A stretch of 64,000 bases of DNA from Chromatiales bacterium (GTDB taxonomy: Bacteria > Pseudomonadota > Gammaproteobacteria > Steroidobacterales > GCA-2729495). Shown piece after piece: positions 20,559-50,951 of the stretch. Both the position numbers and the translations under genes were made by a program. Positions within the stretch are counted from its first letter, which is position 1; every line of letters begins with the position of its first letter. The notes under the pieces were generated by a model. That model did no database searches and was not told the origin of the DNA. It was given only the letters and a program-made list of their open reading frames with translations. The DNA is taken from the NCBI GenBank assembly GCA_020351875.1, contig CP070671.1:3260834-3324833 (forward strand). The letters are read 5' to 3'.

Positions 20559-20588
20559 CGGCCGGCCCGAACCCGAATGGAGAAGCCC

Positions 20589-21353
20589 ATGAACCTGAGT
20601 CGTCGACTCTTTCCCGCGCTGCTGGCGAGCCTGTGTTGCACCATTAGCTGGGCCGGCAGCCACTCGAACGGCGGCACGGTACTGGTCATCGGCGCCACGG
20701 GCGAGACCGGCAAGCTGGTCGTCGCCAGGCTGGTGGACGAGGGCTATACGGTAAAAGCCTTCGTGCGGGACGCGGTGAAGGGCCGTAAGACACTGGGCAA
20801 GAAAGTGTCGCTGGTGACCGGCGATGTCACGATTCCGGCCACCATCGAACCTGCCTTCAACGGCATCGACTACGTGATTTCTGCGGTCGGTGCCACCGCT
20901 GCGTCGGGCAACAACCGGCCGGAGAAGGTCGACTACGAAGGCGTCAAGCACCTTGCCGACGCCGCGGCCGCGGCCGGCGTGAAGCATTTCGTCCTGGTCT
21001 CTTCGATGGGCGTCACTCACGAGGACCACCAGCTGAACCGGTTTTTCGGCAAGGTGCTGATCTGGAAAGCGCAAGGTGAACAGGCCCTGCGCGACAGCGG
21101 CGTGCCCTACACGATCGTCAGGCCCGGCGGCCTGATCAACGAACCCGGCGGTAATCTGCGGGTGGTGGCGATCCAGGGCGACCCGCTAATGGACAACGCG
21201 AGGATCCCCCGCGCCGACGTCGCCCAGGTCTGCATAGAAGCCCTGAAGTCGCCGGCTGCACAAAACAAGACGCTGGAGGTTTTCACCGAAGAAGGCGAAT
21301 CCGTCAGCGATTGGAATGGCTTCTTCGCGGCGCTGGAGCCTGACGGCACCTGA
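20589..21353 (+). CDS. Exported NAD(P)-binding SDR/NmrA-like protein
   Basis: 254 residues from ATG 20589, chosen because ggagaag lies just upstream; the in-frame ATG at 20577 lacks one. A signal peptide (RRLFPALLASLCCTISWAG) precedes an atypical short-chain dehydrogenase with the Rossmann motif GATGETG, VRD after beta-2, and 'VLVSSMGVTHEDHQLNRF'. The usual catalytic YxxxK is not evident, as in NmrA/SDR_a5 sensor or isomerase types. Export of a Rossmann protein is unusual. It is followed by a repeat-rich intergenic region. Confidence 0.83.
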   Translation: MNLSRRLFPALLASLCCTISWAGSHSNGGTVLVIGATGETGKLVVARLVDEGYTVKAFVRDAVKGRKTLGKKVSLVTGDVTIPATIEPAFNGIDYVISAVGATAASGNNRPEKVDYEGVKHLADAAAAAGVKHFVLVSSMGVTHEDHQLNRFFGKVLIWKAQGEQALRDSGVPYTIVRPGGLINEPGGNLRVVAIQGDPLMDNARIPRADVAQVCIEALKSPAAQNKTLEVFTEEGESVSDWNGFFAALEPDGT

Positions 21354-21368: not shown

Positions 21369-21515
21369 CGGCGGGTCCGGGCAGGACACTCTGCCAGGCT
21401 AAACCTCCTTCGGACATCCCTGTCCTCAGTCGGATCGGCCCTCCGTCGCTCCCGCCATCCATGGCTCCACTCCGCCGGGACGACGCCTCGCAGAGTGTCC
21501 TGCCCGGACCCGCCG
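21369..21515. repeat. Dispersed stem-loop repeat, copy A
   Basis: A perfect 26-bp inverted repeat (21369-21394 with 21490-21515) encloses a 95-nt loop. Loop bases 21397-21487 align without gaps to 49039-49129 in copy B with 80 of 91 identical, whereas the arms of the two copies are different sequences. A sub-hairpin GGACA-TCCC-TGTCC lies in the loop. The element begins 16 nt after the exported SDR gene, between convergent genes. No ORF here is convincing. Confidence 0.85.
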
Positions 21516-21849: not shown

Positions 21850-23277
21850 CTAAATCCGATTGAGGATTTCTAAAGCCGCCCGCTCCCCCGACTCCATTGC
21901 CCCTTCCAGCCCAACGTTCAGCACCGCCGTGTAGTCACCCGCAAAGTGCACCCGCCCGTGCGGCGCCGCCAGCACGTTGCCGAACTTCGTGATGTCGCCG
22001 GGCGCGCGGAACGGGATGTGGCCCTGCTGGAACGGCTGGCGATACCAGTTCATCACCGCGGTGATCTCCACGCGGCCTGCCGTGCTTGGCCGCGCGGCCA
22101 CCAGTTCCGCCATCGCGCGCTCGCGGATCTCTGCGTTGCCGAGGTTGCGGAACTCGCGGTTCGCGGCGCCGCTCTTGTTCATCCACAGGTAGTAGCCGTC
22201 TGCGCCGCTGTACTTCATCACGCGGCCCATCGTCGTCGTCGACCACACGGCACCCGGCAACCCGTCCTGCTCCCAGTAGGGCTCCTTCACGTGGAAGTAC
22301 ACGCTGGTGTTGTCGCCCGGCGGGATGCGGCTCACGGCTGCCGCGTGCAGGCCTGGCAGGGCCGGGTTGAAGCTGATCTTGCCGAGGACGCCGAGCGGCG
22401 CGCTGCACACGCAGAAGCGCGCCCGGTAGCTGCGGCCGGCGGCATCCTGAACCGTCACGCCGGTGTCGGTCGTGTCGACGCCTGCCACCTGGATGCCGAA
22501 GCGCACTTCACGCTTCAGCATCGCGGCCATGCCTTCCGGCAGGCGGCTGGAACCGTCGCTGAGCCGCACCAAACCGTCCAGACCGCCCATCTCTTGCTGA
22601 AAGCGGGCCAGGCGCATTTGCCACAGTGCCGATACGCCGTCGAGGCTGTCGGCCGGCACCTGCGTCGCGATCAGCCGGCGCGCCTCTTCGCTCGCGCCGA
22701 TTTCGCGCAGGTAGTCGCCGTAGGCGATGTCGAACTGTTGGGCGTCGGGCGCAAGCCACGAGTCGAGTTCCGACAACGGTGACGGGCGCGGCGCGTAGAT
22801 CATCGGCAGCGCGAAGGGTCCGAACGGCCCGGTGTTGCGTTCCTTGCCGACCAGCTTGTTCAACTCCGATTCGGGCCAGCCGCTGATCGGCATCGTCGTG
22901 CCATCCACGTTCAGCGCAAAATTCAGGTCGGCGGACTCCAGCCAGTTGCCGGTTTGCAGGCCCAGGCGCGTGATCATGTCGCGCACGCGGGCGTAACCCT
23001 TCGCGATTTCTGTGCCGCCGGCCTCGGGGCGGCCCGGCACGCCGTCCAGCGTCCAGATGCGCCCGCCGAGCCGATCGTCGGCCTCGAGCACCAGCACGTC
23101 GAGCCCGGCGTCCTGCAGTAACAGCGCAGCTTCGAGGCCGGACAGGCCCGCGCCGATGACGATCACGTCGGCGTCGGGTGCACGCGCGCAGCCGGTCAAG
23201 CGCAGAACGGACGGTGCCGCAGCCGAAACGGCTGCGGCACCCAGGACTCTTAGCAGTTGCCGGCGACTACTCGCCAC
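21850..23277 (-). CDS. Flavin monoamine oxidase family protein, exported
   Basis: 475 residues with a GTG start at 23277. N-terminus SRRQLLRVLGAAAVSAAAP resembles a twin-arginine signal, which would fit export of a folded flavoprotein; a Cys follows in LTGCARAP. The FAD-binding Rossmann motif is VIVIGAGLSGLEAA with LEADDRLGGRIWT downstream, and the C-terminal FAD motif is 'GRVHFAGDYTAVLNVGLEGAMESGERAA'. The family oxidises amines with release of aldehyde, ammonia and H2O2. Its start overlaps the end of a TonB-receptor remnant, suggesting an ancestral uptake-and-oxidation pair. Confidence 0.9.
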   Translation of the reverse strand: MASSRRQLLRVLGAAAVSAAAPSVLRLTGCARAPDADVIVIGAGLSGLEAALLLQDAGLDVLVLEADDRLGGRIWTLDGVPGRPEAGGTEIAKGYARVRDMITRLGLQTGNWLESADLNFALNVDGTTMPISGWPESELNKLVGKERNTGPFGPFALPMIYAPRPSPLSELDSWLAPDAQQFDIAYGDYLREIGASEEARRLIATQVPADSLDGVSALWQMRLARFQQEMGGLDGLVRLSDGSSRLPEGMAAMLKREVRFGIQVAGVDTTDTGVTVQDAAGRSYRARFCVCSAPLGVLGKISFNPALPGLHAAAVSRIPPGDNTSVYFHVKEPYWEQDGLPGAVWSTTTMGRVMKYSGADGYYLWMNKSGAANREFRNLGNAEIRERAMAELVAARPSTAGRVEITAVMNWYRQPFQQGHIPFRAPGDITKFGNVLAAPHGRVHFAGDYTAVLNVGLEGAMESGERAALEILNRI

Positions 23278-32570: not shown

Positions 32571-32748
32571 CCCTCTGTCCTGAAACCTGAGAGATCGGGC
32601 AACGCAGAACGCGCTACCGCACCCCTTCGGTGGGCCCTGAACGGGGCCGCTCTCCAGAGTCAATCCGGGTCTGCCGTCCGTTTGCCTGAGCGTTTCCGGG
32701 CGAGTTGCGCCTTCGGCGGCCGCCGGTGTGGCGACTCTCTCCCGCGGA
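32571..32748 (-). ncRNA. Glycine riboswitch, tandem aptamers, controlling gcvT operon
   Basis: Reading the minus strand, aptamer 1 starts with gcgggagagagtc and contains the CCGCCGAAGGCGCAA core and the closing CTCAGGCAAACGGAC. A short linker leads to aptamer 2: ctctggagagcgg, then CACCGAAGGGGTG and CTCTCAGGTTTCAGGACAGAGG. These paired 'GGAGAG...CCGAAGG...CTCAGG' blocks are diagnostic. Downstream, a perfect palindrome at 32551-32568 (GGCAGGCC/GGCCTGCC) lies ~30 nt before the gcvT ATG and is a candidate expression platform. A TAGGAT at 32769-32774 is a possible -10 element. In this family glycine binding usually turns expression on. Confidence 0.95.
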
Positions 32749-32797
32749 CCCGTTTGATTGAAGTGATGATCCTAGCGGATCGCCACCGCGACCGCCA

Positions 32798-40312: not shown

Positions 40313-40498
40313 GGTTCCTCCTGCAGTGTTCGAGGCGGGTCTAAGTCTTTCGACCCTAAATCATGACCTTGGGGTCGTCGTCTGTAGACAGTTTTGTGCA
40401 GATCCGCCGCGAGCGGAAAGCCTGCGCTGTCACGGCTGACCCCACCTATCGCTCTGGTTCGAGAGCGATGATTCGTCACGGCACAGGCGGGAGGAACC
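40313..40498 (+). ncRNA. ssrS: 6S RNA
   Basis: About 186 nt. The ends pair: GGTTCCTCCTGC (40313-40324) with GCGGGAGGAACC (40487-40498), one position being G-U. Downstream of the 5' arm come tgttcgaggcggg and, at the 3' side, ccacctatcgctctggttcg, as expected for the long rod with a central bubble that mimics an open promoter and sequesters sigma70-RNA polymerase. Position between zapA and the cyclo-ligase gene is the classic gammaproteobacterial location. Exact ends are inferred from pairing. Confidence 0.92.
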
Positions 40499-42534: not shown

Positions 42535-42608
42535 TGGCTGGGGGACCAGGATTCGAACCTGGATTGACGGAGTCAGAGTCCGTAGTCCTACCATTAGACG
42601 ATCCCCCA
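42535..42608 (-). tRNA. tRNA-Gln (anticodon CTG)
   Basis: 74 nt including an encoded CCA end. Acceptor arms TGGGGGA and TCCCCCA pair, the D-arm has AATGGT, the anticodon loop is CTCTGAC flanked by ACGGA/TCCGT, giving anticodon CTG (reads CAG), and the T-loop is GTTCGAATC. Close to E. coli tRNA-Gln. Terminator lies immediately downstream at 42504-42526. Confidence 0.97.
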
Positions 42609-47611: not shown

Positions 47612-48922
47612 TTGACGGACAAGGTAGAGGCCCTGCTATGGGCACCCAGGGTCGACGAGCTGCCCGGTGTGGCCCGCATGGCCATCAGGCTGGTGCGCTT
47701 CACCTACGCCGTGCTGCGCGACGCGGTGGTCGGCAACCTGCCGATGCGGGCCATGGGGCTCGTGTACATCACGATCCTGTCCATCGTGCCATTGCTGGCC
47801 ATCAGTTTTTCCGTGCTGCGCGGCTTTGGCTTCCACAAGCAGATGGAGCCTTTGCTCTATGAGTTCCTGGCGCCCCTGGGCGAGAAGGGCGTGGAATTAA
47901 CGAACCAGGTCGTCGGCTTTGTCGACAACGTGCAGGGCTACGTCGGGGCGGCCGTCGGGGCGCTGGTGCTGTTGATCTACACCACGCTGTCCATGGCGGA
48001 GAAAGTGGAAGACAGCATGAACTTCGTGTGGCGCGTGGAACGCTCACGCAACATTGCCCGGCGCCTCAGCGAGTTCCTCAGCGTGATCCTGCTGGGCCCG
48101 GTCGTCATGGTCACCACGATCAGCCTGATCGCAGCGGCCGAGAGCACCACTGTGGTCCAGGAACTTCAGGGCATCGAGGCCATCGGCCAGACACTGCTGT
48201 TCGCAGGAAAACTGGTGCCCTACCTGATTGTCATCGCCGGCTTCAGCTTCGTGTACTGGTTCCTGCCCAACACGCGGGTGCACCTGAGCGCGGCGCTCGT
48301 GGGCGGCCTGGCAGGCGGGATGCTGTGGGCCGCGTCCGGCTCGCTGTTCGCGATATTTGTCGTGAATTCCGTCCGTACGCTCAGCATCTATGCAACCTTT
48401 GCCGTCGTGATCATTGCGCTGATCTGGCTCTATCTCTGCTGGCTGATCCTGCTGGTCGGCGCACAGGTCGCGTTCTACGTGCAACATCCCGAACACATCC
48501 GGCTCGGTTTCCGGCGGGTTACGCTCGGCGGGCGCCGGCGTGAAGAAATCGCGCTGAGCCTGATGAGCCTGATCGCGCAGCGTTTCCGCGACGGTGCCCA
48601 GCGTCTGCAGATGCAGGACGTCGCGGAACAACTGGCATTGCCCAGCCTGGTGATCGGTGCCGTCGGCCAGCGGCTGGAATCGGCGGGCCTGCTCACCCGC
48701 ACCCAGAAAGACGAGCTGCTGCCCGGCCGCGACCCGGGCCAGATTCGCCTCAGCGAGATCCTCGATGCAGTTCGCGAACCGCAGATGATGGACATGTTCC
48801 CGGAAGGCAACTGGCCCCAGGGTGTGAAACGCGTCGCCAGTCAAGTCCGCGGCGCAATCGACCAAAGCCTCGGCGCCCAGTCCCTGTACGACATCATCGA
48901 CACCTCCCGCGCCGAGACCTAG
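47612..48922 (+). CDS. yihY: YihY/UPF0761 family inner-membrane protein
   Basis: 436 residues from a TTG start at 47612 (TDKVEALLWAPRVDELPGVA follows, matching the beginning of relatives); ATG 47558 is in frame but overlaps a possible -10. Six TM segments in the first ~300 residues with RAMGLVYITILSIVPLLAISFSVL, YTTLSMAEKVEDSMNFVWRV and FLPNTRVHLSAALVGGLAGG. The C-terminal ~130 residues are a cytoplasmic winged-helix-like region. Once called RNase BN, which is not correct; function unknown, possibly envelope transport. Confidence 0.88.
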   Translation: MTDKVEALLWAPRVDELPGVARMAIRLVRFTYAVLRDAVVGNLPMRAMGLVYITILSIVPLLAISFSVLRGFGFHKQMEPLLYEFLAPLGEKGVELTNQVVGFVDNVQGYVGAAVGALVLLIYTTLSMAEKVEDSMNFVWRVERSRNIARRLSEFLSVILLGPVVMVTTISLIAAAESTTVVQELQGIEAIGQTLLFAGKLVPYLIVIAGFSFVYWFLPNTRVHLSAALVGGLAGGMLWAASGSLFAIFVVNSVRTLSIYATFAVVIIALIWLYLCWLILLVGAQVAFYVQHPEHIRLGFRRVTLGGRRREEIALSLMSLIAQRFRDGAQRLQMQDVAEQLALPSLVIGAVGQRLESAGLLTRTQKDELLPGRDPGQIRLSEILDAVREPQMMDMFPEGNWPQGVKRVASQVRGAIDQSLGAQSLYDIIDTSRAET

Positions 48923-49017
48923 AAGAACCCCGTCGTCTCGCCTTCGACTTCGCTGGCGGGTCCGGGTGTCCGGCCGTCACGCTGGCTTACCCTGCGGATG
49001 TGGTGGACTGCCGCCGC

Positions 49018-49150
49018 CGCGGGGCACGCGCTCTTCCTGGCTTAACCTCACCCGGACATCCCTGTCCGGGTTCGGATCGGCCCTCCGTCGCTCCCGCCAT
49101 CCCTGGCTCCGCTCCTCCGGGACGACGCCCGGAAGAGCGCGCGCCCCGCG
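49018..49150. repeat. Dispersed stem-loop repeat, copy B
   Basis: Arms 49018-49037 and 49131-49150 pair at 19 of 20 positions around a 93-nt loop. Loop bases 49039-49129 match copy A (21397-21487) at 80 of 91 positions without gaps. Within the loop, ACCCGGACA-TCCC-TGTCCGGGT is a perfect 9-bp hairpin; in copy A it is shortened to 5 bp. Located ~95 nt after yihY, between convergent genes. Confidence 0.85.
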
Positions 49151-49274
49151 ACGTCGGCGTGACAGTGCGGTGGGGGGGCCGAGCCGGCCGCTAATGCTGA
49201 TGGTGAATTCAGGCGTGATAAGAAAACCTTGGCAACCTGGTGAGATTGTCATCAGGGACGACACTGAGGCCAGG

Positions 49275-49314
49275 TCGCGACAGCGGCACGCCAATCAGGA
49301 AGCCACCATCGCCC
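49275..49314. repeat. Second shared block of the dispersed repeat (copy B)
   Basis: Forty bases matching 21606-21645 at 33 positions. The interval 49151-49274 and the bases 49315-49421 show no gene; short ORFs there are not conserved in frame between the two copies. Confidence 0.7.
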
Positions 49315-49421
49315 TCCTCCCAATGACGGGGGCGAGATAATCGGCACGACGCCGTCAGAGAAAGTGCTTGAAAAGGCGGCACCCGATTGATGGTCCGCCA
49401 AGCTGCAAGGCCGTGCAGGGG

Positions 49422-49466
49422 AAAGCTTTTTCAGGCGACTACAAAACTGGAGCCAGAAAAAGCTTT
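49422..49466. repeat. A+T-rich 11-bp inverted repeat near the pmbA 3' end
   Basis: AAAGCTTTTTC (49422-49432) and GAAAAAGCTTT (49456-49466) are exact inverted repeats with a 23-nt loop. It lies ~65 nt beyond the pmbA stop, so it may act as that gene's terminator, although the stem is not G+C-rich. Confidence 0.6.
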
Positions 49467-49530
49467 GCGCTGCGCGGCTGGCACCAACGTAACACCATCT
49501 TCACAACCACAACATCAAGCCAACCAGCCA

Positions 49531-50868
49531 TCAGTTCCCCGCAATCGTCATCCCCCCAACCAACACTGACCCCGTCCGAATCCCGCCCCGCAGATCGACG
49601 TCCGTCCCGACTGCTTCGATCTGCTTGTACATGTCGGCCAGGTTGCCGGCGACCGTGATCTCGTTGACGGGATAACAGAGTTCGCCATGCTCCACCCAGA
49701 AGCCGGCCGCGCCGCGTGAATAGTCGCCGGTCACCGTGTTCACGCCCTGCCCCATCAGCTCCGTCAGCAGCAGGCCGCGGTCCATCCCGGCCAGCAGATC
49801 GTCGTAACTCTCACCGGTACTGTCGACGACCAGGTTGTGGATGCCACCGGCGTTGCCCGTGGTTTCGAGGCCCAGCTTGCGCGCGTAGTAGCTGCCCAGC
49901 ACGTAGCCGCGTAACACGCCGGCGTCTATCAACGGACGGTCGGCGGTGGCGACGCCTTCGGCGTCGAAAGGTGCGCTCGCCAGCCCGCCGGGAATATGGG
50001 ATTGCTCGGCCACGTTGACCCGGTCTGCAAACACCGTCTGGTTCAGCGCGTCGGCGAGGAAGGTGGATTTGCGATACAGGTTGCCACCGCTGATCGCCCC
50101 CACGAAGTGCCCGAACAGGCTGCGCGCAAGGCGCGCAGGATAGAGCACCGGGACTGTCGCCGTGTCGAGTTTGCGGGCACCCAGCCGGCGAACCGCGCGC
50201 ACGGCGGCTTCGCGGCCGATGGCCCCGGCGCTTTCCAGTAATTCAGGTGAACGGGACACAGAATAGTCGAAGTCGCGTTCCATTGCGCCGTTCTCGCTCG
50301 CGAGCACCGCGCATGACAGGCTGTGCTGACTGCTCGGATACCCGGCCAGGAAGCCGTGGGTATTGCCATACACGCGAGCACCCGAATGCGTCGACAGGGT
50401 GGCACCCTCGGAATTGGTGATCCGGGCGTCTGCGGCCAGGCCGGCGGCCTCGCACTCGGTGGCCAGTTCGATCGCCGCCGCGGGCTCCAGGTCCCACGGG
50501 TGATAGAGATCGAGATCCGGAATGTCGCGCGCCATTCGCTCGGCCGCGGCAAGACCGGCGAACTCATCTTCGGCCGCGTACTGGGCCAGCGAGCAGGCTT
50601 TCTGCACCGCCTCCGCGACCGCGTCCGGATCCAGGTCTGAGGTGCTGGCACTACCCTTGCGATGCTCGAAAAACACGGTCACCGCGAGGCCCTGGTCGCG
50701 GTGGTATTCGAGCGTCTCCACCTCGCGCATACGCACGGTGGCCGACAAGCCGGCGCCGCGGCTGGCGCTGGCCTCGGCCTGGCTCGCCCCGAGATCCCGG
50801 GCCGTCGCCAGCGCCGCGCTCACGCGCTCGCTCAGGGTGGCAATATCGCTTTGCGTCGTGTTATTCAT
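49531..50868 (-). CDS. pmbA: Metalloprotease-like subunit PmbA/TldE
   Basis: 445 residues from ATG 50868. Homologue of TldD lacking the HExxxH zinc site; the pair forms a heterodimeric protease that degrades unfolded peptides and matures microcins and modified peptides. Marks: SASRGAGLSATVRMREVETL, RLARSLFGHFVGAISGGNLYRKSTFLAD, GGIHNLVVDSTGESYDDLLAGM, GQGVNTVTGDYSRGAAGFWVE and the TSVLVGGMTI-like ending. Divergent from purE (83 nt between). TldD is encoded separately at 51689-53146. Confidence 0.95.
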   Translation of the reverse strand: MNNTTQSDIATLSERVSAALATARDLGASQAEASASRGAGLSATVRMREVETLEYHRDQGLAVTVFFEHRKGSASTSDLDPDAVAEAVQKACSLAQYAAEDEFAGLAAAERMARDIPDLDLYHPWDLEPAAAIELATECEAAGLAADARITNSEGATLSTHSGARVYGNTHGFLAGYPSSQHSLSCAVLASENGAMERDFDYSVSRSPELLESAGAIGREAAVRAVRRLGARKLDTATVPVLYPARLARSLFGHFVGAISGGNLYRKSTFLADALNQTVFADRVNVAEQSHIPGGLASAPFDAEGVATADRPLIDAGVLRGYVLGSYYARKLGLETTGNAGGIHNLVVDSTGESYDDLLAGMDRGLLLTELMGQGVNTVTGDYSRGAAGFWVEHGELCYPVNEITVAGNLADMYKQIEAVGTDVDLRGGIRTGSVLVGGMTIAGN

Positions 50869-50951
50869 GGCTCGTGTAATCGTGGCCTGCAGCGGGTAGT
50901 CTACCCCGCACATTTTGGCCTGTTACCTGCAGAAACGGATAGGCTTCAATC

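Follow-up and report, generated by a model that had tools for sequence, protein, structure and literature searches.

A dispersed repeat with a conserved core and variable, self-complementary arms in a Chromatiales genome: a candidate CsrA-binding structured RNA

Why do the two arms of an intergenic hairpin remain complementary when their sequence differs from copy to copy? This question is raised by copies A and B of a long stem-loop in a 64,000-nucleotide stretch of a Chromatiales bacterium genome, which is called the window throughout this text. An earlier note on this DNA had described both copies as sharing a conserved loop between differing yet internally paired arms, and our measurements bear this out: the cores are identical at 80 of 91 ungapped positions (88%), and the inverted repeats are 97% complementary in copy A (21369-21399/21485-21515) and 88% in copy B (49010-49041/49127-49158). 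None of 200 dinucleotide shuffles folded as well as either copy (z scores on the plus and minus strands of -8.3 and -9.3 for copy A, and of -6.0 and -6.0 for copy B). Both are flanked by convergent genes, whose names were assigned by eye from their sequences: an SDR-like (20577-21353, +) and an FAD amine oxidase-like gene (21850-23199, -) for copy A, and a YihY-like (47669-48922, +) and a PmbA/TldE-like gene (49531-50913, -) for copy B.

Table 1. Positions of the two window copies and their parts; arms and hairpins are named in RNA orientation.
Feature	Window position	Strand	Remarks
Copy A, whole element	21369..21515	- (proposed RNA strand)	Basis: sequence, fold, inverted repeat
Copy A, variable closing stem, 5' arm	21488..21515	-	
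Copy A, variable closing stem, 3' arm	21369..21396	-	
Copy A, 91-nt conserved core (three-way junction)	21397..21487	-	
Copy A, hairpin 1	21454..21465	-	GCCAUGGAUGGC; loop AUGGAU at 21457-21462
Copy A, hairpin 2	21412..21425	-	GGACAGGGAUGUCC; loop AGGGAU at 21416-21421
Copy B, whole element	49010..49158	- (proposed RNA strand)	Basis: sequence, fold, inverted repeat
Copy B, 91-nt conserved core	49039..49129	-	
Copy B, hairpin 1	49096..49107	-	GCCAGGGAUGGC; loop AGGGAU at 49099-49104
Copy B, hairpin 2	49050..49071	-	ACCCGGACAGGGAUGUCCGGGU; loop AGGGAU at 49058-49063
Copy B, host intergenic region (608 nt)	48923..49530	none	Between YihY-like and PmbA/TldE-like genes

Dispersed copies and the pairing of their arms

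The two copies are real, but they are not the only ones: the 3.49-Mb genome contains at least 21 dispersed copies (19 by sequence search, 21 by covariance model), where the note had counted two. A core of about 91 nt is common to all copies, and the arms differ between copies and mostly pair within a copy. Over the 14 middle arm positions of 17 copies, a copy's own arms paired at 12.0 positions on average, compared with 7.1 when the arms were swapped, and none of 20,000 permutations of the arms among these copies equalled the observed pairing total. The note had conceded that its reading would fall if other copies had unpaired arms, or if the two copies were unique and their pairing no better than in shuffled sequences. 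The copies are not unique; a few of them are poorly paired in their arms (L003, L005 and L017, with 7-8 of 14 middle pairs), most copies having 11-14 of 14. In two pairs of copies the 91-nt cores are identical, although the arms differ at 5-9 of 30 positions per side. Besides, the left arm of L004, whose right arm was masked, is the exact reverse complement of the right arm of L003. The two arms of L003 do not match each other, a pattern like that expected from recombination of two copies within the core.

Minus-strand fold and GGA loops

What the earlier note called a loop is conserved as stated, but it folds into a three-way junction that bears two hairpins. The consensus fold energy is -106 kcal/mol on the minus strand versus -80 kcal/mol on the plus strand, and the plus strand described earlier is likely the complement of the functional strand. 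Read on the minus strand, the core consists of a closing helix, GCGUCGU, hairpin 1, CGAUUCGAG, hairpin 2 and GAGAUUAAGC, in this order, and its three-way junction fold includes tandem-GA motifs and a G.U pair that is invariant in 34 of 34 aligned sequences. Strand-specific wobbles (GU versus AC) favour the minus strand, with 34:17 in the arms and 57:2 in the core; the cells are non-independent, and the core ratio comes mostly from this single invariant G.U pair. In the closing helix, GA stands opposite GA in 12 sequences and Watson-Crick pairs are found in many others; relatives often have GA facing GA beside the junction.

The alignment of 34 elements, drawn from gammaproteobacteria and from MAGs named Rhodospirillaceae, Methylomirabilis and Nitrospira, contained 240 two-sided covariation cells compared with 75.6 (sd 7.7) in shuffles, and its paired fraction was 90.6% compared with 35-46% when the partners were slid. 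This strong covariation, together with the identical cores that carry differing arms, supports the earlier note's suggestion of a stem under selection as in a structured RNA. We consider it very probable that the element is a structured RNA.

Both hairpin loops mostly read A(N)GGA followed by a pyrimidine, N being free (A, C, G or U) or missing, and such loops match the CsrA/RsmA-binding consensus. As loci L069-L098 were retrieved by a pattern containing the hairpin-2 loop, this loop is not independent there and only hairpin 1 counts; loci found by covariance model R1 are less biased for the loops, as this genome was the only source of R1. GNRA loops were considered as the cause of the GGGA sequences and rejected, since the first position of the NGGA part can also be U, C or A. 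ANGGAY hairpins show no general enrichment in the rest of the window. CsrA is a global post-transcriptional regulator. The protein is dimeric and binds hairpins of this kind two at a time (PMC4333381). The genome encodes a single canonical CsrA gene with the VHREEIY motif, and csrA is present in 21 of the 28 genomes tested, the Rhodospirillaceae and Nitrospira MAGs among them; it was not found in the copy-carrying MAGs G019 (96% complete) and G051 (94% complete), nor in five further MAGs that are less complete or unrated.

Relation to known families and occurrence in other genomes

Scanned against Rfam, with gathering as well as permissive thresholds, the element gave no match at cut-off. Elsewhere in the window the Rfam matches are ordinary, namely a 6S RNA (40315-40497, +), a tRNA (42538-42608, -) and a glycine riboswitch (32664-32754, -). 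The earlier note knew of no named class with this form; the closest family is TwoAYGGAY (RF01731, clan CL00106), which likewise combines two ANGGAY hairpins with an external stem of poor conservation. RF01731 was the best Rfam family by bits for locus L071 (22.2 bits), with the match on the RNA strand and across the full model, and relatives scored 22-38.5 bits (the highest being L099, full length, with 38.5) relative to a gathering score of 43 bits; the copies of this genome gave no RF01731 match at E<=1. As all copies stay under the gathering score, we do not file the element as RF01731. TwoAYGGAY was listed in 2010 as probably RNA, from human gut, gammaproteobacteria and Clostridiales (PMC2864571), and a later motif study that describes its two tandem GAs and poorly conserved external stem predicts that it binds CsrA (PMC4333381). 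The papers searched contained no functional experiment on this family.

Like TwoAYGGAY, the element has two ANGGAY-loop hairpins enclosed in one long external stem that is poorly conserved in sequence, as well as tandem GA in the stem; at hairpin 2, CGA stands across from CGAG in the majority of 46 sequences. Its loops follow ANGGAY rather than strict AYGGAY, some being A-GGA-Y. The conserved junction strings GCGUCGU, CGAUUCGAG and GAGAUUAAGC are absent from the RF01731 consensus shown, and unlike the family, the element occurs here as many dispersed copies. We regard it as a divergent, multicopy relative of TwoAYGGAY that probably works like it. Shorter forms, with two ANGGAY hairpins in a perfect stem of 25-30 bp, were also observed (L051, L061 (G048) and L141-L148); they do not have the full three-way junction and are nearer to TwoAYGGAY.

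Other known systems resemble the element in part. The sponge sRNAs CsrB/CsrC and RsmX/Y/Z come from dedicated genes, one to a few in number, and their GGA sites are often more numerous. The element shares with them GGA-loop hairpins expected to titrate CsrA, but has two GGA sites in each of about 20 elements. As with REP/REPIN and BIME sequences, the copies are dispersed, palindromic, located after stop codons and often arranged in inverted pairs; however, REP arms are short and conserved in sequence, whereas the arms here span 25-30 bp, are sequence-free and enclose the conserved part. Terminal inverted repeats conserved among copies, as in MITEs and REPINs, are not seen, the arms being different, while absence at the orthologous site was found for copy B. 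With integron attC sites the element has in common a structure more conserved than its sequence and a location near stop codons, but it lacks R'/R'' core end sites, no cassette arrays were seen, and its sequence-conserved part is internal; identity with attC was rejected because the end motifs are missing. A literature search for this repeat found no description.

Among 60 related genomes searched with model R1, 15 contained copies, 1 to 23 apiece, and the copy number within the genus ranges from 0 to 21. Scanning GTDB species genomes for a pattern of the element identified further gammaproteobacterial MAGs (Pseudohongiella, Chromatiales, Pseudomonadales and Muproteobacteria), in addition to single outlying MAGs named Rhodospirillaceae, Methylomirabilis and Nitrospira, which may be binning errors. 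A phylum-wide survey with a second model, R2, gave 4 of 398, which is no estimate of prevalence, as R2 had poor recall and scored just 9 of the 21 copies of this genome.

Gene context, origin of the copies and competing explanations

The mechanism that we find most likely, giving it about an even chance, is that of a dispersed structured RNA that binds and sequesters CsrA. The element would be an RNA of about 150 nt transcribed from the minus strand, in which the long, sequence-free closing stem opens into the three-way junction and presents two short A(N)GGAY hairpins, one for each RNA-binding face of the CsrA/RsmA dimer. Transcription of a copy might come from read-through or from a promoter that escaped recognition, and the resulting RNA would bind CsrA and serve as a dispersed sponge or tether. 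In the long stem pairing alone would matter, so that its sequence could drift, with the loops and the junction staying fixed.

Against this mechanism stand the copy-carrying MAGs in which csrA was not found, and a scan for sigma-70 promoters at copies A and B that recognised none; in adjacent inverted pairs, moreover, the RNA 5' ends lie together, with no space for a promoter. The median gap between element and gene is 220 nt at the 5' side and 41 nt at the 3' side. According to an approximate gene caller, on which the neighbour counts rest, 40 of 48 close neighbours (<=60 nt) are stop-proximal, and 30 of these 40 genes are antisense to the RNA strand at its 3' side, 10 being placed otherwise. 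This antisense position (30 versus 10) fits poorly with a sponge cut from the adjoining gene's own 3' UTR. The convergent setting noted earlier applies to copies A and B but is not universal, being found in 12 of 20 copies of this genome. A role of the variable arms as target guides was rejected: a genome search with the concatenated arms returned the elements, one further 29-nt match of 90%, and chance-level matches.

The same neighbourhood suits an explanation that we judge unlikely, namely a REP/BIME-like element at the 3' ends of plus-strand mRNAs, whose hairpin would block 3' exonucleases or halt transcription of the preceding gene, the core being just a hairpin cap. Stop-proximal neighbours predominate, three quarters of them (30 of 40) read the plus strand, and convergent genes each have a copy of their own, in the same orientation. 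However, an intrinsic terminator scan revealed neither a U-tract nor a terminator-like site at A or B, and the conserved junction, the GGA loops and the G.U pair are sensible on the minus strand only. The scan also gives no support to the terminator option of the earlier note, though it would be compatible with a terminator lacking a U-tract.

How the copies arose can be approached at the site of copy B. Most of the relatives examined have YihY and PmbA side by side in convergent orientation, and the spacing between the matches is 10-65 nt in 17 relatives, reaches 108, 163 and 239 nt in another three and about 824 nt in G007, compared with 608 nt here. The short junction in relatives indicates that copy B was most likely acquired, within a larger insertion. 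The transposition substrate suggested by the earlier note may fit this apparent insertion. Next to SDR orthologues no equivalent of copy A is present, which is suggestive only, as gene order on the other flank of copy A is not kept.

The copy-B region also contains pieces of two other repeat families, in each of which a conserved interior is likewise enclosed by arms that vary but are complementary. One of them (window 49410-49478 and L133-L139, seven genomic places) has a conserved loop, CGACTACAAAACTGGAG, and arms of 10-25 bp that are wholly different between copies yet complementary, a design like that of the element with an unrelated loop. The other, whose CATCCCTG-type hairpins belong to a unit of about 160 nt, lies upstream (in RNA orientation) of L003, L007, L012 and L013 and has left remnants at window 48955-49010; the middle 8-9 bp of its outer stem, GGGCCGG-variable-CCCGTCAC, are copy-specific yet paired. 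L001, L002 and L011 are elements apparently nested in pieces of this family. In a relative, G016, the PmbA/YihY junction that is occupied by copy B here contains a different long hairpin (L110), with arms of about 27 bp and GCCGCAGGAGCGGC in its loop.

The probable gain of copy B, the range of 0 to 21 copies within a genus, the REPIN-like inverted pairs and the presence in distant phyla would also be in line with a non-autonomous mobile element that functions as folded single-stranded DNA, recognised by its structure and moved by some enzyme, with no role for RNA. We consider this rather improbable, as there is no conserved terminal sequence and no associated recombinase was recognised, the loop variation tracks the CsrA consensus, and viral contigs, searched for phage carriage, gave zero matches to the element pattern. 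Template-switch (quasi-palindrome) mutation, which would keep the arms of inert debris complementary in place of selection, is very improbable: it could produce the near-perfect, mostly Watson-Crick arm pairs (473 of 558 cells), the identical cores with different arms and the two further families of similar build, but leaves unexplained the core covariation, the loop consensus, the GU bias and the core conservation across distant genomes.

Returning to the CsrA-binding RNA, we tentatively speculate, with considerable doubt, that the element could be a self-spreading RNA element that brings CsrA-binding hairpins to 3' intergenic regions across phyla and thereby forms a distributed CsrA buffer, the complementary, sequence-free stem letting each copy fold on itself and not on its siblings.

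Known CsrA sponges are usually one to few dedicated sRNAs. The 34-sequence alignment with its strong covariation is a possible basis for a new Rfam entry. If the proposed CsrA binding is true, a function would be supplied for the TwoAYGGAY group, and the pool of free CsrA would depend on the copy number of a repeat.
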